The translations under genes and the position numbers were made by a program. Source: Lysobacterales bacterium (GTDB taxonomy: Bacteria; Pseudomonadota; Gammaproteobacteria; Xanthomonadales; SZUA-36). Taken from it: a stretch of DNA of 64,000 nucleotides. Positions 49,380 to 54,285 of the stretch are shown piece by piece (within the stretch, counting starts at the first letter, position 1; every line of letters starts with the position of its first letter). A model generated the notes under the pieces. That model saw only the letters and a program-made list of their open reading frames with translations. It had not been told where the DNA came from and searched no databases. The DNA is taken from contig JAOUCS010000005.1 in the NCBI GenBank assembly GCA_029859645.1, positions 1 through 64,000 on the forward strand, written 5' to 3'.

Positions 49380-50123
49380 TCAGGACTTGCGGGCAATGGC
49401 CCTGAGTTCGTCCATATCCTTGATTCGCACCTGCTTGCGGTCTACCTTGACCACTCCTGCTTTCTGGAAGCGTGCCAGCACGCGGCTGACGGTTTCGGTA
49501 GCCAGTCTCAGGTAGCTCGCTATATCCCGGCGGGACATGGCGAGAATGAATTCACGGTCCGAATATCCACGGCGTGAGAATCGATCCGACAGTGACAGCA
49601 GGAACATCGCAATACGCTCGTCCGCACTCAGGTCACCGGCGATGGTCTCCAGTTCACTGATGCGCTGACTCATGACCCGGAACAGCTCGGACTGGAGTTC
49701 GGGCATGTGGCGAGCCATGCTGGTCACCGTCTCGAAAGTCAGCCCGCAAACCGCACTGGTATCCAGCGCCACCACGTTAGCGACATGTTTGCAGGAATGA
49801 ATAGCGTCCAGGCCGATAATTTCACCCGGCAGGTGAAAACCAAGGACTTGTTCCTGCCCTTCATGGTCAATGACATAGCTCTTGAAACAACCCGTCCGGA
49901 CAGATGCGACAGAGCGGAATTCGTCACCTGCGCGGAACAGATGTTCACCTGGCTGGATGGGGCGTGAGCGATGAACAATCTGCTCAAATCGTTCGGTTTC
50001 ATCGGGAGTCAAACCACGCGGCAGGCAAAGTTCGCCCAGCGCGCAACGGCTGCAGGCTACCTGTGCCCGGGAGGGTTCACGCCGGTAATCCCGGATGTTA
50101 GCCACTCTTAAGGAACTTTCCAT
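49380..50123 (-). CDS. fnr: FNR/ANR-type oxygen-sensing transcriptional regulator
   Basis: 247-residue CRP-family protein with the [4Fe-4S] ligands of true FNR: Cys24, Cys27 and Cys33 in ACSRCALGELC, plus Cys111 in IHSCKHVANV. The cNMP-like domain follows, then the helix-turn-helix SRRDIASYLRLATETVSRVLARF, whose E..SR recognition residues predict binding to TTGAT-N4-ATCAA. Active when oxygen is low. ATG 50123 has a GGAG site. The gene lies downstream of hemN on the same strand, a common pairing; a matching FNR box is found upstream of hemN at 51687. Confidence 0.93.
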   Translation of the reverse strand: MESSLRVANIRDYRREPSRAQVACSRCALGELCLPRGLTPDETERFEQIVHRSRPIQPGEHLFRAGDEFRSVASVRTGCFKSYVIDHEGQEQVLGFHLPGEIIGLDAIHSCKHVANVVALDTSAVCGLTFETVTSMARHMPELQSELFRVMSQRISELETIAGDLSADERIAMFLLSLSDRFSRRGYSDREFILAMSRRDIASYLRLATETVSRVLARFQKAGVVKVDRKQVRIKDMDELRAIARKS

Positions 50124-50231: not shown

Positions 50232-51623
50232 TCAGATGACGCGCGAGAATTTCGGGGTCGTTGCGGGCTCCTGCATGTACTCATCAAAGGTCATTGCGAT
50301 CGCTCTCAGCAGTAACCTGCCCTCGGGTGTCGCCCTGAATTCGTCGTCACCCATTTCGATCAGCCCGTCACGTTCCAGTTGCTCGAGGTTTCCGAGCTCC
50401 AATGCAAAATGGTCATGAAAGTCGATCGCGTAGTTGGACTCGAATTCGCGGAAGTTGACTTCGCCATGGCACATGATGGACTCGATAATGCTGCGCCGCA
50501 GCCTGTCCTCGGTGTTCAGGCTCACACCGCGCCAGATCGGCAGCTTGCCCTCGGCCACGACCGATTGCCAGGTGGGTATGTCCTTGAGATTCTGGGCATA
50601 GCAGTCGCCTACTTTGCCGATTGCACTGACACCCAGCCCGACCAGATCGCATTCCTTGCGGGTCGAGTAGCCCTGGAAATTCCGCTGGAGCCCACCTTCC
50701 TGTTGGGCAATGGTCAGTTCATCGTCAGGCAGGGCAAAGTGATCCATGCCGATGTAGACATAACCGGCGGCCGTCAGCTTGTCGATGGTGAGTTCCATCA
50801 ATTCCAGTTTGGTCTCGGGTGAGGGTATGTCCTTCGAATCAATCATGCGCTGTGCGCGGAAAAGATGCGGCAGGTGTGCGTAGTTGTATACCGCCAGGCG
50901 ATTGGGCTTGACGCTGACCACGGTGTCGATCGTATTCGCGAAGCTTGCGGTAGTCTGCAGCGGCAAACCGTAAATCAAATCGATGGAAACGGAATTGAAA
51001 CCCAGCTTGCGGGAGGCTTCCACCATATCCAGCGTGGCGTCCTTGTCCTGTATCCGGTTGACGGCTTCCTGGACCTTCGGGTCAATATCCTGAACGCCCA
51101 GGCTGATCCGGTTGAATCCCAACGAAGCAAGGTTGGCTAACCGTTCGCGACCTACCGTTCTGGGGTCGACTTCGATGGAAAATTCTCTGCTTTCATCGCC
51201 ACTCAGGGAAAAGTGCTCCCCCAGGCAAGTCATGAGCTTGCCGAGCTTCTCGTCATCGTGGAATGTCGGTGTTCCGCCTCCCAGGTGTAACTGGATCACT
51301 TCACGGTCATGATCGAAAAGTTCACCCTGCAGGGCGATCTCCCGGTTGAGCAGTTCCAGGTATTGATCCGCCTGTGTCTCGTGCCGGGTGACTTTTTTCA
51401 TGCAACCGCAGTAATAACAGAGCGATCTGCAAAACGGCAGATGCACGTATAGCGATAAGGGCTTGGGGATCAGTTCGCTGTTACTGGCCGCGGTAAAGCG
51501 CCGGTAGGCTTCAGCGTCGAAACCTTCCATGAACTGAACAGCTGTGGGATAAGACGTGTAGCGAGGTCCGGCTACATCGTATGTCTTGATGAGTTCTGTG
51601 TTGAATTTGACGCGCTGTTCCAT
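50232..51623 (-). CDS. hemN: oxygen-independent coproporphyrinogen III oxidase HemN
   Basis: 463-residue radical SAM enzyme that decarboxylates coproporphyrinogen III to protoporphyrinogen IX without oxygen. The cluster motif is CRSLCYYCGC (Cys65, Cys69, Cys72, Cys74), preceded by YVHLPF; HLGGGTPTF is the SAM-binding GGGTP. True HemN residues RYTSYPTA near the N-terminus and the C-terminal HemN domain (IMCHGEVNF) are present, which separates it from HemW. The upstream FNR box (51687-51700) and downstream fnr support induction under low oxygen. Confidence 0.95.
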   Translation of the reverse strand: MEQRVKFNTELIKTYDVAGPRYTSYPTAVQFMEGFDAEAYRRFTAASNSELIPKPLSLYVHLPFCRSLCYYCGCMKKVTRHETQADQYLELLNREIALQGELFDHDREVIQLHLGGGTPTFHDDEKLGKLMTCLGEHFSLSGDESREFSIEVDPRTVGRERLANLASLGFNRISLGVQDIDPKVQEAVNRIQDKDATLDMVEASRKLGFNSVSIDLIYGLPLQTTASFANTIDTVVSVKPNRLAVYNYAHLPHLFRAQRMIDSKDIPSPETKLELMELTIDKLTAAGYVYIGMDHFALPDDELTIAQQEGGLQRNFQGYSTRKECDLVGLGVSAIGKVGDCYAQNLKDIPTWQSVVAEGKLPIWRGVSLNTEDRLRRSIIESIMCHGEVNFREFESNYAIDFHDHFALELGNLEQLERDGLIEMGDDEFRATPEGRLLLRAIAMTFDEYMQEPATTPKFSRVI

Positions 51624-51686
51624 TGACTGTTCCGGCTCTTGTCCTGCTTTATAAGTGAAGCGTAAACGATGCCACGAGGGGCAATG

Positions 51687-51700
51687 TTGATCGGAGTCAA
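51687..51700. promoter_or_regulatory. FNR-box between hemN and a divergent small transcript
   Basis: TTGAT-CGGA-GTCAA matches the FNR consensus TTGAT-N4-ATCAA at 9 of 10 positions. It lies about 64 bases before the hemN ATG and just upstream of a plus-strand TTGACA promoter, so one bound FNR dimer could affect both directions. Confidence 0.7.
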
Positions 51701-51711
51701 AAGCTTAGCCT

Positions 51712-51739
51712 TTGACACTTCATCTGCTTGAAATACATT
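51712..51739 (+). promoter_or_regulatory. sigma-70-like promoter of the small transcript opposite hemN
   Basis: Perfect -35 TTGACA (51712-51717), 16-base spacer, -10 TACATT (51734-51739, 4 of 6). Predicted start near 51746. The FNR box centre is about 52 bases upstream of that start. Confidence 0.55.
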
Positions 51740-51781
51740 CAAAATCTGGCAACAATTCTGAGGGAAATGGGAAACTAAAAC

Positions 51782-51901
51782 ATGACACAAGTCAATTACC
51801 CTCCAAGTGCCCGCTCGTACACTACATGCATCGACGAACCAGAACAGCGGTTTTTCGAGGGAACACGATTGTGTGAAGACTCTCCAAGTCTCAAGAATTA
51901 G
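51782..51901 (+). CDS. small ORF, 39 residues, in the FNR-linked transcript
   Basis: Begins MTQVNYPPSARSYTTCIDEP and ends LCEDSPSLKN: polar, two Cys, no membrane segment, unknown family. The ribosome site is weak (GGGAAA about 10 bases before ATG 51782). The stop TAG overlaps the first base of the terminator stem. It may be a real small protein, a translated leader within an sRNA, or chance; placement inside a well-delimited transcription unit is the main support. Confidence 0.4.
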   Translation: MTQVNYPPSARSYTTCIDEPEQRFFEGTRLCEDSPSLKN

Positions 51902-51928
51902 GCCAGACTCACGTCTGGCCTTCTTTTT
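51901..51928 (+). terminator. strong intrinsic terminator opposite the CDGSH gene end
   Basis: GGCCAGAC pairs perfectly with GTCTGGCC around TCAC, followed by TTCTTTTT on the plus strand. It ends the small transcript. On the minus strand the stem is followed by TAATTCTTG, so it may also serve the CDGSH gene that stops at 51976. Confidence 0.88.
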
Positions 51929-51975: not shown

Positions 51976-52611
51976 TCAGCCGGTTTTAAAACCTGTTTTT
52001 GAATGCGACCCATCACAGAACGGTTTGCTGGCCGACTGTCCACAGCGGCACAAAGAGCCGCGCATTTTGACGCACTCCTGGCCAAACTGGTTGTGCATCC
52101 GCAGACGGCCCCGAAACGTGATCGGGCCATCCTTGATGCACGAGATGGTGATCTTGCTGGGGCGCTGCGATGCCGCAATTTCTGATACTTCCGAAATTTT
52201 ACCCGGATGGAGAAACTCCTTATCCAGGTGCTGGCCATCACAGTTCGGTTTGGTTCCCGAGTGGCCGCAACGGCACAACGACAGGTGGTTGGCATACTGA
52301 ACCGAACCGTCTTCCAACACCATCGTGATATTGCCGGTGATCTGCAAAGGGCCACCATTGGTTACCAGCGCCTCGTTAGGCACTTCCAGCAGTCGCGGCG
52401 CGCTATGGTTTTTCTGGCGCTCCTTGAACCATCGATCCAGTGCTTTGGCCGACGTGCTCTGATGGTCCTTTCCGGTTAAGGATGAACTGCCACTGTCGAC
52501 AGAATCGTCCATATAAGCAACGAATGCCTCACCGGATTTCTGACTGCTGGTTTGCGAATCCTGCTCGATTCGCGCAGCGGCGGATGCCGCTCGTTTGGTC
52601 GTGTCATCCAT
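51976..52611 (-). CDS. tandem CDGSH iron-sulfur domain protein
   Basis: 211 residues. Two CDGSH motifs with the C-X-C...C...H ligand set: CRCGHSGTKPNCDGQH and CRCGQSASKPFCDGSH, each expected to bind a [2Fe-2S] cluster. Upstream parts carry ITGNITMVLEDGSVQYANHLS and ITFRGRLRMHN strands typical of divergent CDGSH proteins. The N-terminal 90 residues are charged and Ser-rich (MDDTTKRAASAAARIEQDS, then AFVAYMDDSVDSG), longer than usual. ATG 52611 is chosen for its GAGGAAG ribosome site; the frame is open to 52689. Role unknown, possibly redox sensing or cluster transfer. It lies beside hemN and the FNR-linked unit, as its neighbour on the other side. Confidence 0.83.
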   Translation of the reverse strand: MDDTTKRAASAAARIEQDSQTSSQKSGEAFVAYMDDSVDSGSSSLTGKDHQSTSAKALDRWFKERQKNHSAPRLLEVPNEALVTNGGPLQITGNITMVLEDGSVQYANHLSLCRCGHSGTKPNCDGQHLDKEFLHPGKISEVSEIAASQRPSKITISCIKDGPITFRGRLRMHNQFGQECVKMRGSLCRCGQSASKPFCDGSHSKTGFKTG

Positions 52612-52683
52612 GACATCTTCCTCCGAGAAATCCTTTCCCTGTTTATACTGTAGCAGTTGTTTCTGACCAGTGCGAGAAATTTT

Positions 52684-54285
52684 GTGCAAAAAATAATCAA
52701 TAAAGCCATCTCATTCATCCTGTTATTGGCCAGTTTTTCGTTGTTTGCCGCACCCGATGCGGCACCTGAAAGAGAGCGTGGCGAGGGGCCGTTCGATCGT
52801 CTGGTTCTGCGCGGAGTGACGGTCATCAATGGCGAAGGTGCGCCTCCCATTGGCCCGATGGACGTCGTGATCGAAGGCAATCGTATTGCTTCGATTCACA
52901 ACGTAGGGTTTCCCGGGGTTCCTGTGCTGGATGAAGACCGTCCTGAAATTCAGCCAGGTGACCGGGTGCTGGAACTACAAGGCCACTACCTGCTGCCCGG
53001 CTTTGTCGACATGCATGCGCATTTCGGTGGAGACGCCCAGGGCGTACCCGCGGAGTATCCGGCGAAACTCTGGTTGGCTCACGGCATCACGACCATTCGC
53101 GAGCCAGGCAGTTTCAATGGTCTGGACTGGGTGAAGGAGCATCAGCGACGCAGCGCCGACAACACGATCACGGCGCCCAGGATCGTGCCATATGTCGGCT
53201 TTGGCCAAGGCAACGATGGCCCGTTTCTGACACCGGCGGAAGCCAGGGTTTGGGTTCGGGATATCGCCAAACAGGGTGCCAGCGGGATCAAGTTTTTTGG
53301 CGCCCCGCCGGAAATCATGAAGGCGGCGCTGGACGAAGCCCGCGCACAGGGTCTGGGATCGGCAATGCACCACGCACAACTGGATGTGACGCACTGGAAC
53401 GTCCTGGATTCCGCCCGGGCGGGGCTGACCACTATGGAGCACTGGTATGGGCTTCCGGAAGCTCTCTTCGAACAGCAGGTAATCCAGGATTATCCGGCCG
53501 ACTACAACTACAGCAATGAGCAACATCGCTTCGGGCAGGCTGGTCGATTATGGCAGCAGGCAGCTGCCCCCGGATCTGAAAAATGGAACTCGGTCAGGGA
53601 CGAATTGATTGCGCTTGGCTTCACGTTGAATCCTACCCTGACCATTTACGAAGCAAGTCGCGATCTGATGAGGGAAATGAATGCAGATTGGCAGCAGGAT
53701 TATGCCCACCCCAACCTCTGGGCATTCTTTCAACCTTCGCGGCGGGCCCATGGGTCTTACTGGTTCGACTGGACCACCGCGGATGAGATTGCCTGGAAAG
53801 AGAATTTCAGGTTGTGGATGACTTTCCTCGATGATTACAAGAATCATGGCGGCAGCATTACCTTGGGATCAGATTCGGGGTATATCTGGAAACTCTATGG
53901 CTTCGGTTACATTCGTGAAATGGAGCTATTGCAGGAAGCGGGATTCCACCCCCTGGAGGTTTTGAGATCTGCGACCATCCAGGGAGCAAAGGTGCTGGGT
54001 ATGCAGGACCGGATCGGGTCCATTCGCCCGGGAAAGCTGGCAGACCTGGTCGTCACCGCCTACAACCCACTGGAAAATTTCAAGGTGTTATACGGCACGG
54101 GCCATTTCCGGCTGAATGACGGTAATCAGCCGGCGCGCCTGGGCGGCGTTCGCTATACCATCAAGGACGGCATCATTTATGACGCTGCCGAATTGCTGGA
54201 CGACGTGCGCGAGATGGTGAAAAGTGCGCGGAGCGAAGCAGGCAGCGGTCCCGGACCCGAGCGGCTGCCTTTCATTCCGCAGTAG
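52684..54285 (+). CDS. exported amidohydrolase family protein
   Basis: 533 residues with signal peptide (QKIINKAISFILLLASFSLF, cut near AA) and a metal-dependent amidohydrolase barrel. Ligand motifs: GFVDMHAHFGG (HxH), a Lys/His region with ASGIKFFGAPPEIM and AMHHAQLDVTHW, and the final GSDSGY. The usual C-terminal composite domain is present (ATIQGAKVLGMQDRIGSIRPGKLADLVV). Such exported proteins hydrolyse peptides, lactones or cyclic amides; no substrate is suggested by context. The start GTG 52684 leaves a good signal peptide; TTG 52657 is possible. Confidence 0.83.
   Translation: MQKIINKAISFILLLASFSLFAAPDAAPERERGEGPFDRLVLRGVTVINGEGAPPIGPMDVVIEGNRIASIHNVGFPGVPVLDEDRPEIQPGDRVLELQGHYLLPGFVDMHAHFGGDAQGVPAEYPAKLWLAHGITTIREPGSFNGLDWVKEHQRRSADNTITAPRIVPYVGFGQGNDGPFLTPAEARVWVRDIAKQGASGIKFFGAPPEIMKAALDEARAQGLGSAMHHAQLDVTHWNVLDSARAGLTTMEHWYGLPEALFEQQVIQDYPADYNYSNEQHRFGQAGRLWQQAAAPGSEKWNSVRDELIALGFTLNPTLTIYEASRDLMREMNADWQQDYAHPNLWAFFQPSRRAHGSYWFDWTTADEIAWKENFRLWMTFLDDYKNHGGSITLGSDSGYIWKLYGFGYIREMELLQEAGFHPLEVLRSATIQGAKVLGMQDRIGSIRPGKLADLVVTAYNPLENFKVLYGTGHFRLNDGNQPARLGGVRYTIKDGIIYDAAELLDDVREMVKSARSEAGSGPGPERLPFIPQ

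Follow-up and report, generated by a model that had tools for sequence, protein, structure and literature searches.

Introduction

To our knowledge, small RNAs activated by FNR have been described in few lineages, namely the enterobacteria, Neisseria and, through the FNR homologue ANR, Pseudomonas. FnrS of E. coli and other Enterobacteriaceae is an intergenic RNA of about 100 nt that ends in a terminator in an Hfq-carrying host, and its promoter has a class II FNR site at -41.5 (PMC3032703). AniS/FnrS of Neisseria likewise has an FNR class II promoter, and this RNA of about 111 nt has a 5' stem-loop and a terminator, and contains an AUG that proved not to be translated (PMC3032703). PhrS of Pseudomonas aeruginosa is longer, at 213 nt, is induced by ANR and binds Hfq, and another RNA, PrrF, has the mRNA of a putative bacterioferritin among those it represses (PMC6321483).

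Here we analyze a locus from an uncultured marine bacterium of the Lysobacterales (genome G000), contained in a 64-kb stretch of DNA that we refer to as the window. A preliminary description of the gap beside hemN had read it as a small transcription unit opposite that gene, driven by an FNR box at position 51687 together with a TTGACA/TACATT promoter, closed by a terminator, and giving an oxygen-responsive small RNA, a 39-residue protein, or both.

Results

Two genes to the left of the gap, both on the minus strand, set its context. The first, hemN, encodes oxygen-independent coproporphyrinogen III oxidase (50232-51623; TIGR00538, 587 bits against a cut-off of 325), and the second, fnr, encodes the likely activator (49380-50123; NF008365 Fnr, 239 bits against a cut-off of 228). 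By inspection, the Fnr protein has a C-X2-C-X5-C motif plus a later cysteine, a spacing that we take to be that of oxygen-sensing FNR. The FNR box TTGATcggaGTCAA at 51687-51700 does match 9 of 10 consensus positions, as the preliminary description had noted, and it is the only FNR site in the 64 kb that scores at least 8 and has class II-like spacing (0.4 expected). This box faces hemN. On the minus strand it is followed after a 22-bp gap by the -10 element TACGCT (51659-51664), just ahead of the start predicted near 51652 and then of the hemN start codon, and box, gap and a TACGCT, TAGGCT, TAGTCT or TACCCT element (TA(C/G)(G/C/T)CT) recur in nine of the nine aligned genomes, which are those with hemN on that side. 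In the plus-strand direction, the alignment of relatives shows no conserved element after the box. Because the minus-strand -10 is kept at 22 bp in all nine genomes, we assign the 51687 box to hemN and not to the small RNA. The strings TTGACA (51712-51717) and TACATT (51734-51739) are indeed present (10 of 12 positions), but they are not conserved in relatives, and two promoter-like sites of this kind were found against 0.9 expected in shuffled sequence.

A different FNR-type box, ATGACacaaGTCAA, lies 95 bp from the hemN box at 51782-51795 on the plus strand and is conserved in all ten close homologues, which span five genera. It is followed by the -10 element TACACT (51818-51823; TA(A/C/G)ACT in 10 of 10), with a gap of 22 bp in nine homologues and 23 bp in one. 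Since class II FNR sites centre at -41.5, and this box is centred at 51788.5, we place the predicted start of the RNA near 51830, about 84 bases downstream of the start claimed previously. The locus thus carries, at about -41.5 from the inferred start and together with a -10, the site expected of an FNR-activated small RNA. Sequence and spacing are direct observations here, and from them we infer FNR binding and transcription. Measured against the E. coli consensus, the box in G000 scores 7 of 10, and the activator could therefore be another protein of the CRP/FNR family; some relatives score 8-9 of 10, and the box reaches 9 of 10 in G009, G019 and G024. Conservation in the alignment peaks over this box (51782-51796), over the -10 (51818-51824) and over the 3' part of the RNA (51857-51926), and the 3' half of the interval first proposed has 77-86% identity in relatives (DNA search, 61 relatives). 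Neither the 51782-51795 box nor the conserved RNA core had been singled out in the preliminary description.

The predicted FNR-dependent RNA extends over about 99 nt (51830-51928, plus strand), with its start set by the promoter spacing and its end by an intrinsic terminator. It would open with a 5' hairpin (51831-51858) in which pairs covary, for example from GC to AU, followed by a second hairpin, ACAC-GAUU-GUGU (51863-51874), nearly invariant in the ten homologues, and a third, AGACU-CUCCA-AGUCU (51877-51891), invariant in all ten. The terminator (51900-51928), which was correctly identified at the outset, consists of a nine-pair stem (51900-51921) and a T tract; it is conserved in the homologues and its pairs also covary. 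A run of 32 consecutive bases (51865-51896) is unchanged across ten genomes from five genera. This run includes the putative seed GACUCUCC (51878-51885), which lies in the third hairpin, partly in its loop, is kept in five of the seven diverged homologues described below, and forms an anti-Shine-Dalgarno stretch complementary to the Shine-Dalgarno-type sequence GGAGAGUC. The RNA folds with a z-score of -3.06. Of 15 pairs, 9 showed double changes, and compensatory substitutions were seen in both the 5' hairpin and the terminator. On a structure derived from the same alignment, 90.8% of cells were paired, versus 80.4% in shuffles and 32-54% when the partners were slid.

No Rfam family matched the window at its gathering score, and at E values up to 10 the only hits were SorY (0.016), Betaproteobacteria_toxic_sRNA (0.12), suhB (0.32) and the rpsL leader (4.6), all of them far below their gathering scores and rejected as identities. 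The comparison with PhrS and FnrS models that had been suggested therefore gave no match. A search of the open-licence literature found no such RNA described in Lysobacterales. The earlier suggestion of an oxygen-responsive small RNA, perhaps undescribed in this lineage, is supported by the promoter anatomy, conservation, covariation and absence from Rfam.

The proposed 39-codon reading frame (51782-51901, plus strand) exists as a string of 39 amino acids, but it is intact in just two of the ten homologues (G000 and G018). In the other eight it is broken by indels or by an in-frame stop that arises from the -10 variants TAAACT and TAGACT, and it is not kept in the diverged homologues. The ATG that would start it belongs to the left half-site of the 51782-51795 box, no Shine-Dalgarno sequence was seen close to this ATG by inspection, and the predicted transcript start falls 48 bases inside the frame. 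The 39-residue product has no Pfam match, and the similarity to it that a protein search detects in relatives reflects conservation of the DNA, with stops and frameshifts. Given an ATG inside an FNR box and a frame intact in 2 of 10 genomes, we judge the ORF spurious; a small protein at this locus, alone or alongside the RNA, is very probably not real. The terminator is conserved and covarying while the reading frame is broken, as expected of a non-coding RNA. Of the promoter, ORF and terminator originally joined into one unit, only the terminator is conserved in relatives.

The close relatives that carry the RNA element are uncultured, known as metagenome-assembled genomes. A covariance model (R1) matched 10 of 39 genomes of the family with E values of 5e-15 to 4e-20, these being the ten genomes from which it was built. 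Reading the regions upstream of hemN in other family genomes revealed seven diverged copies at the same locus, in which the 5' hairpin is kept and the promoter layout is shared (box, 21-22 bp, then TAGACT, TAAACT or TAAAAT). R1 reaches four of these seven, weakly, and a second model (R2) finds the copy in G019, a genome outside its training set, at an E value of 6.5e-4. Counting the ten close and seven diverged copies, 17 of the 39 family genomes, from 9 of the 14 genera, carry the RNA. Model searches of the remainder of 398 order genomes and of 369 genomes of the class gave nothing convincing. When 20 core bases were sought as an exact string in 84,980 species genomes, nine records came back, all from genomes already known as carriers. 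Among the weak R1 and R2 matches in the order and class, only L114 (in G019) was real. L125 (in G486) is a separate case, described below; the others (L051-L056, L109-L113, L115-L124, L126-L135) were for the most part tRNAs or the ends of genes, with ordinary terminators, and none had an FNR promoter.

The surroundings of the RNA gene differ between genomes, in particular the gene downstream. In the window this is a gene on the opposite strand for a protein with two CDGSH iron-sulphur domains (51979-52689), which ends just past the small RNA; in several relatives a queD-like gene separates the two. In G007 (L029, 1501-1804) the RNA gene sits between a queD-like gene and hemN and is co-directional with hemN, so the RNA is not tied to the divergent arrangement. 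In that genome, the stretch preceding the RNA gene showed no hemN FNR box.

Of the 17 carriers, 15 encode Hfq, among them every one of the nine with a completeness of at least 90% and a contamination of at most 5%. We scanned ten carrier genomes for the GGAGAGUC pattern just before an ATG, and the gene that recurred most was bfr (bacterioferritin, TIGR00754), in four genomes. In 4 of the 10 type 1 genomes the bfr ATG is immediately preceded by TGGAGAGTC, which in several carriers forms an extended Shine-Dalgarno that fits the RNA seed. The complement has a mismatch in G018 and in the window's own genome (UGGAGAAUC) and is weaker in G002, and no bfr was found in G007; among family members that lack the RNA, most bfr upstream regions do not have the seed complement. 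The mean pairing energy of the RNA core with the bfr start was -16.1 kcal/mol in type 1 carriers versus -11.9 for shuffled cores, which reached the observed energy in 10 of 500 cases, the genomes that share the complement being related and the scan having no genome-wide background. The corresponding means were -13.6 kcal/mol in genomes lacking the RNA and -11.6 in those with its diverged type. We regard the bfr Shine-Dalgarno region as the best candidate target, tentatively, on a modest signal. The bfr loci inspected were L165-L171 (G004, G008, G000, G001, G015, G018 and G003). The best match to the seed was in G003, where neither the RNA nor a match to hemN was found, possibly owing to an assembly gap. 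Three further possible targets, each in a pair of genomes, have GGAGAGTC ahead of their ATG (locus pairs L200/L221, L234/L237 and L235/L263): a membrane protein, leuA and a SnoaL-like protein, names that we take from their translations. Two genomes each are too few to claim them.

Discussion

We interpret the locus as encoding an FNR-activated, trans-acting small RNA, a reading to which we assign a probability of about 0.82. When oxygen falls, FNR would bind both boxes in the gap next to hemN, turning on hemN leftwards from the 51687 box and, through a class II promoter, the RNA of about 99 nt rightwards from the 51782 box. The transcript would fold into the 5' hairpin, the two short hairpins and the terminator, and, probably with Hfq, would pair its invariant GACUCUCC with Shine-Dalgarno regions (GGAGAGUC). 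Such pairing would repress mRNAs unwanted without oxygen, with bfr mRNA as the best candidate. While the presence of Hfq is observed directly, its use by the RNA, the targets and the direction of regulation are what we infer. That a lineage-specific, FNR-controlled RNA blocks the bacterioferritin ribosome-binding site in the absence of oxygen is a possibility we hold to be well short of even odds; if true, it would tie iron storage directly to oxygen, and not to iron via Fur.

The most serious competitor accepts the RNA and changes its activator. A different CRP/FNR-family protein that reads TGAC-N4-GTCA, such as a nitric-oxide-responsive Dnr-type regulator, would account for the fact that most boxes in the family have the form TGAC..GTCA and not TTGAT..ATCAA, and the signal would therefore not be oxygen itself. 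The hemN boxes of the same genomes have similar half-sites, however, a curated Fnr adjoins the locus, and three genomes carry 9 of 10 FNR boxes before the RNA, so we consider this unlikely. Far less probable still are two readings that do away with the RNA as we describe it. All the strings of a unit running from the 51687 box through TTGACA/TACATT to a 39-residue protein are present, yet that box faces hemN with a conserved -10, the promoter is not conserved, and the frame, which stops or indels interrupt in 8 of 10 homologues, is not kept in the diverged ones either and has no Shine-Dalgarno nearby, which leaves this proposal largely refuted. The conserved element might instead be a 3' UTR, a leader or a DNA element, with no independent RNA; in favour of this, its downstream neighbour changes from genome to genome. 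Against this stand its own promoter layout and terminator, its covarying stems, and the orientation of hemN, which is divergent (co-directional in G007). We would be surprised if either of these two held.

The FNR-activated RNA that we favour resembles FnrS in its size, intergenic position, terminator, class II site at -41.5 and Hfq-carrying host, but it has another locus, lineage and seed, and no Rfam FnrS match either at the gathering score or at E values up to 10. With Neisseria AniS/FnrS it shares the class II FNR promoter, the 5' stem-loop, the terminator and an AUG that is untranslated there and very probably here; it is set apart by its lineage and the lack of an Rfam match. PhrS is similar in being induced by an FNR homologue, as the FNR-type site suggests here. 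It also contains a short ORF, whereas the RNA at this locus has no conserved ORF, is about 99 nt long versus 213, and has no Rfam match. The proposed repression of bfr recalls the iron-sparing RNAs PrrF and NrrF, but those are controlled through Fur and iron and not through an FNR-type site. The RNA appears to work like FnrS and AniS, with no homology to either seen in the Rfam searches.

In uncultured Lysobacterales, then, the same promoter layout precedes an apparently unrelated RNA, mostly divergent to hemN, which suggests that FNR-activated RNAs arose more than once. A sequence family with a clear seed is suited to the study of oxygen-dependent target choice. The locus also illustrates that an operator sequence can give rise to a spurious small ORF. 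In a genome from another family of the class (G486; L125, 1411-1600) we observed an FNR-type box TTGACGCAGGTCAA, 23 bp and TAATAT, with a terminator about 150 bp beyond these promoter-like elements and adjoining a response-regulator gene; this is possibly an unrelated FNR-linked small RNA and a separate case.
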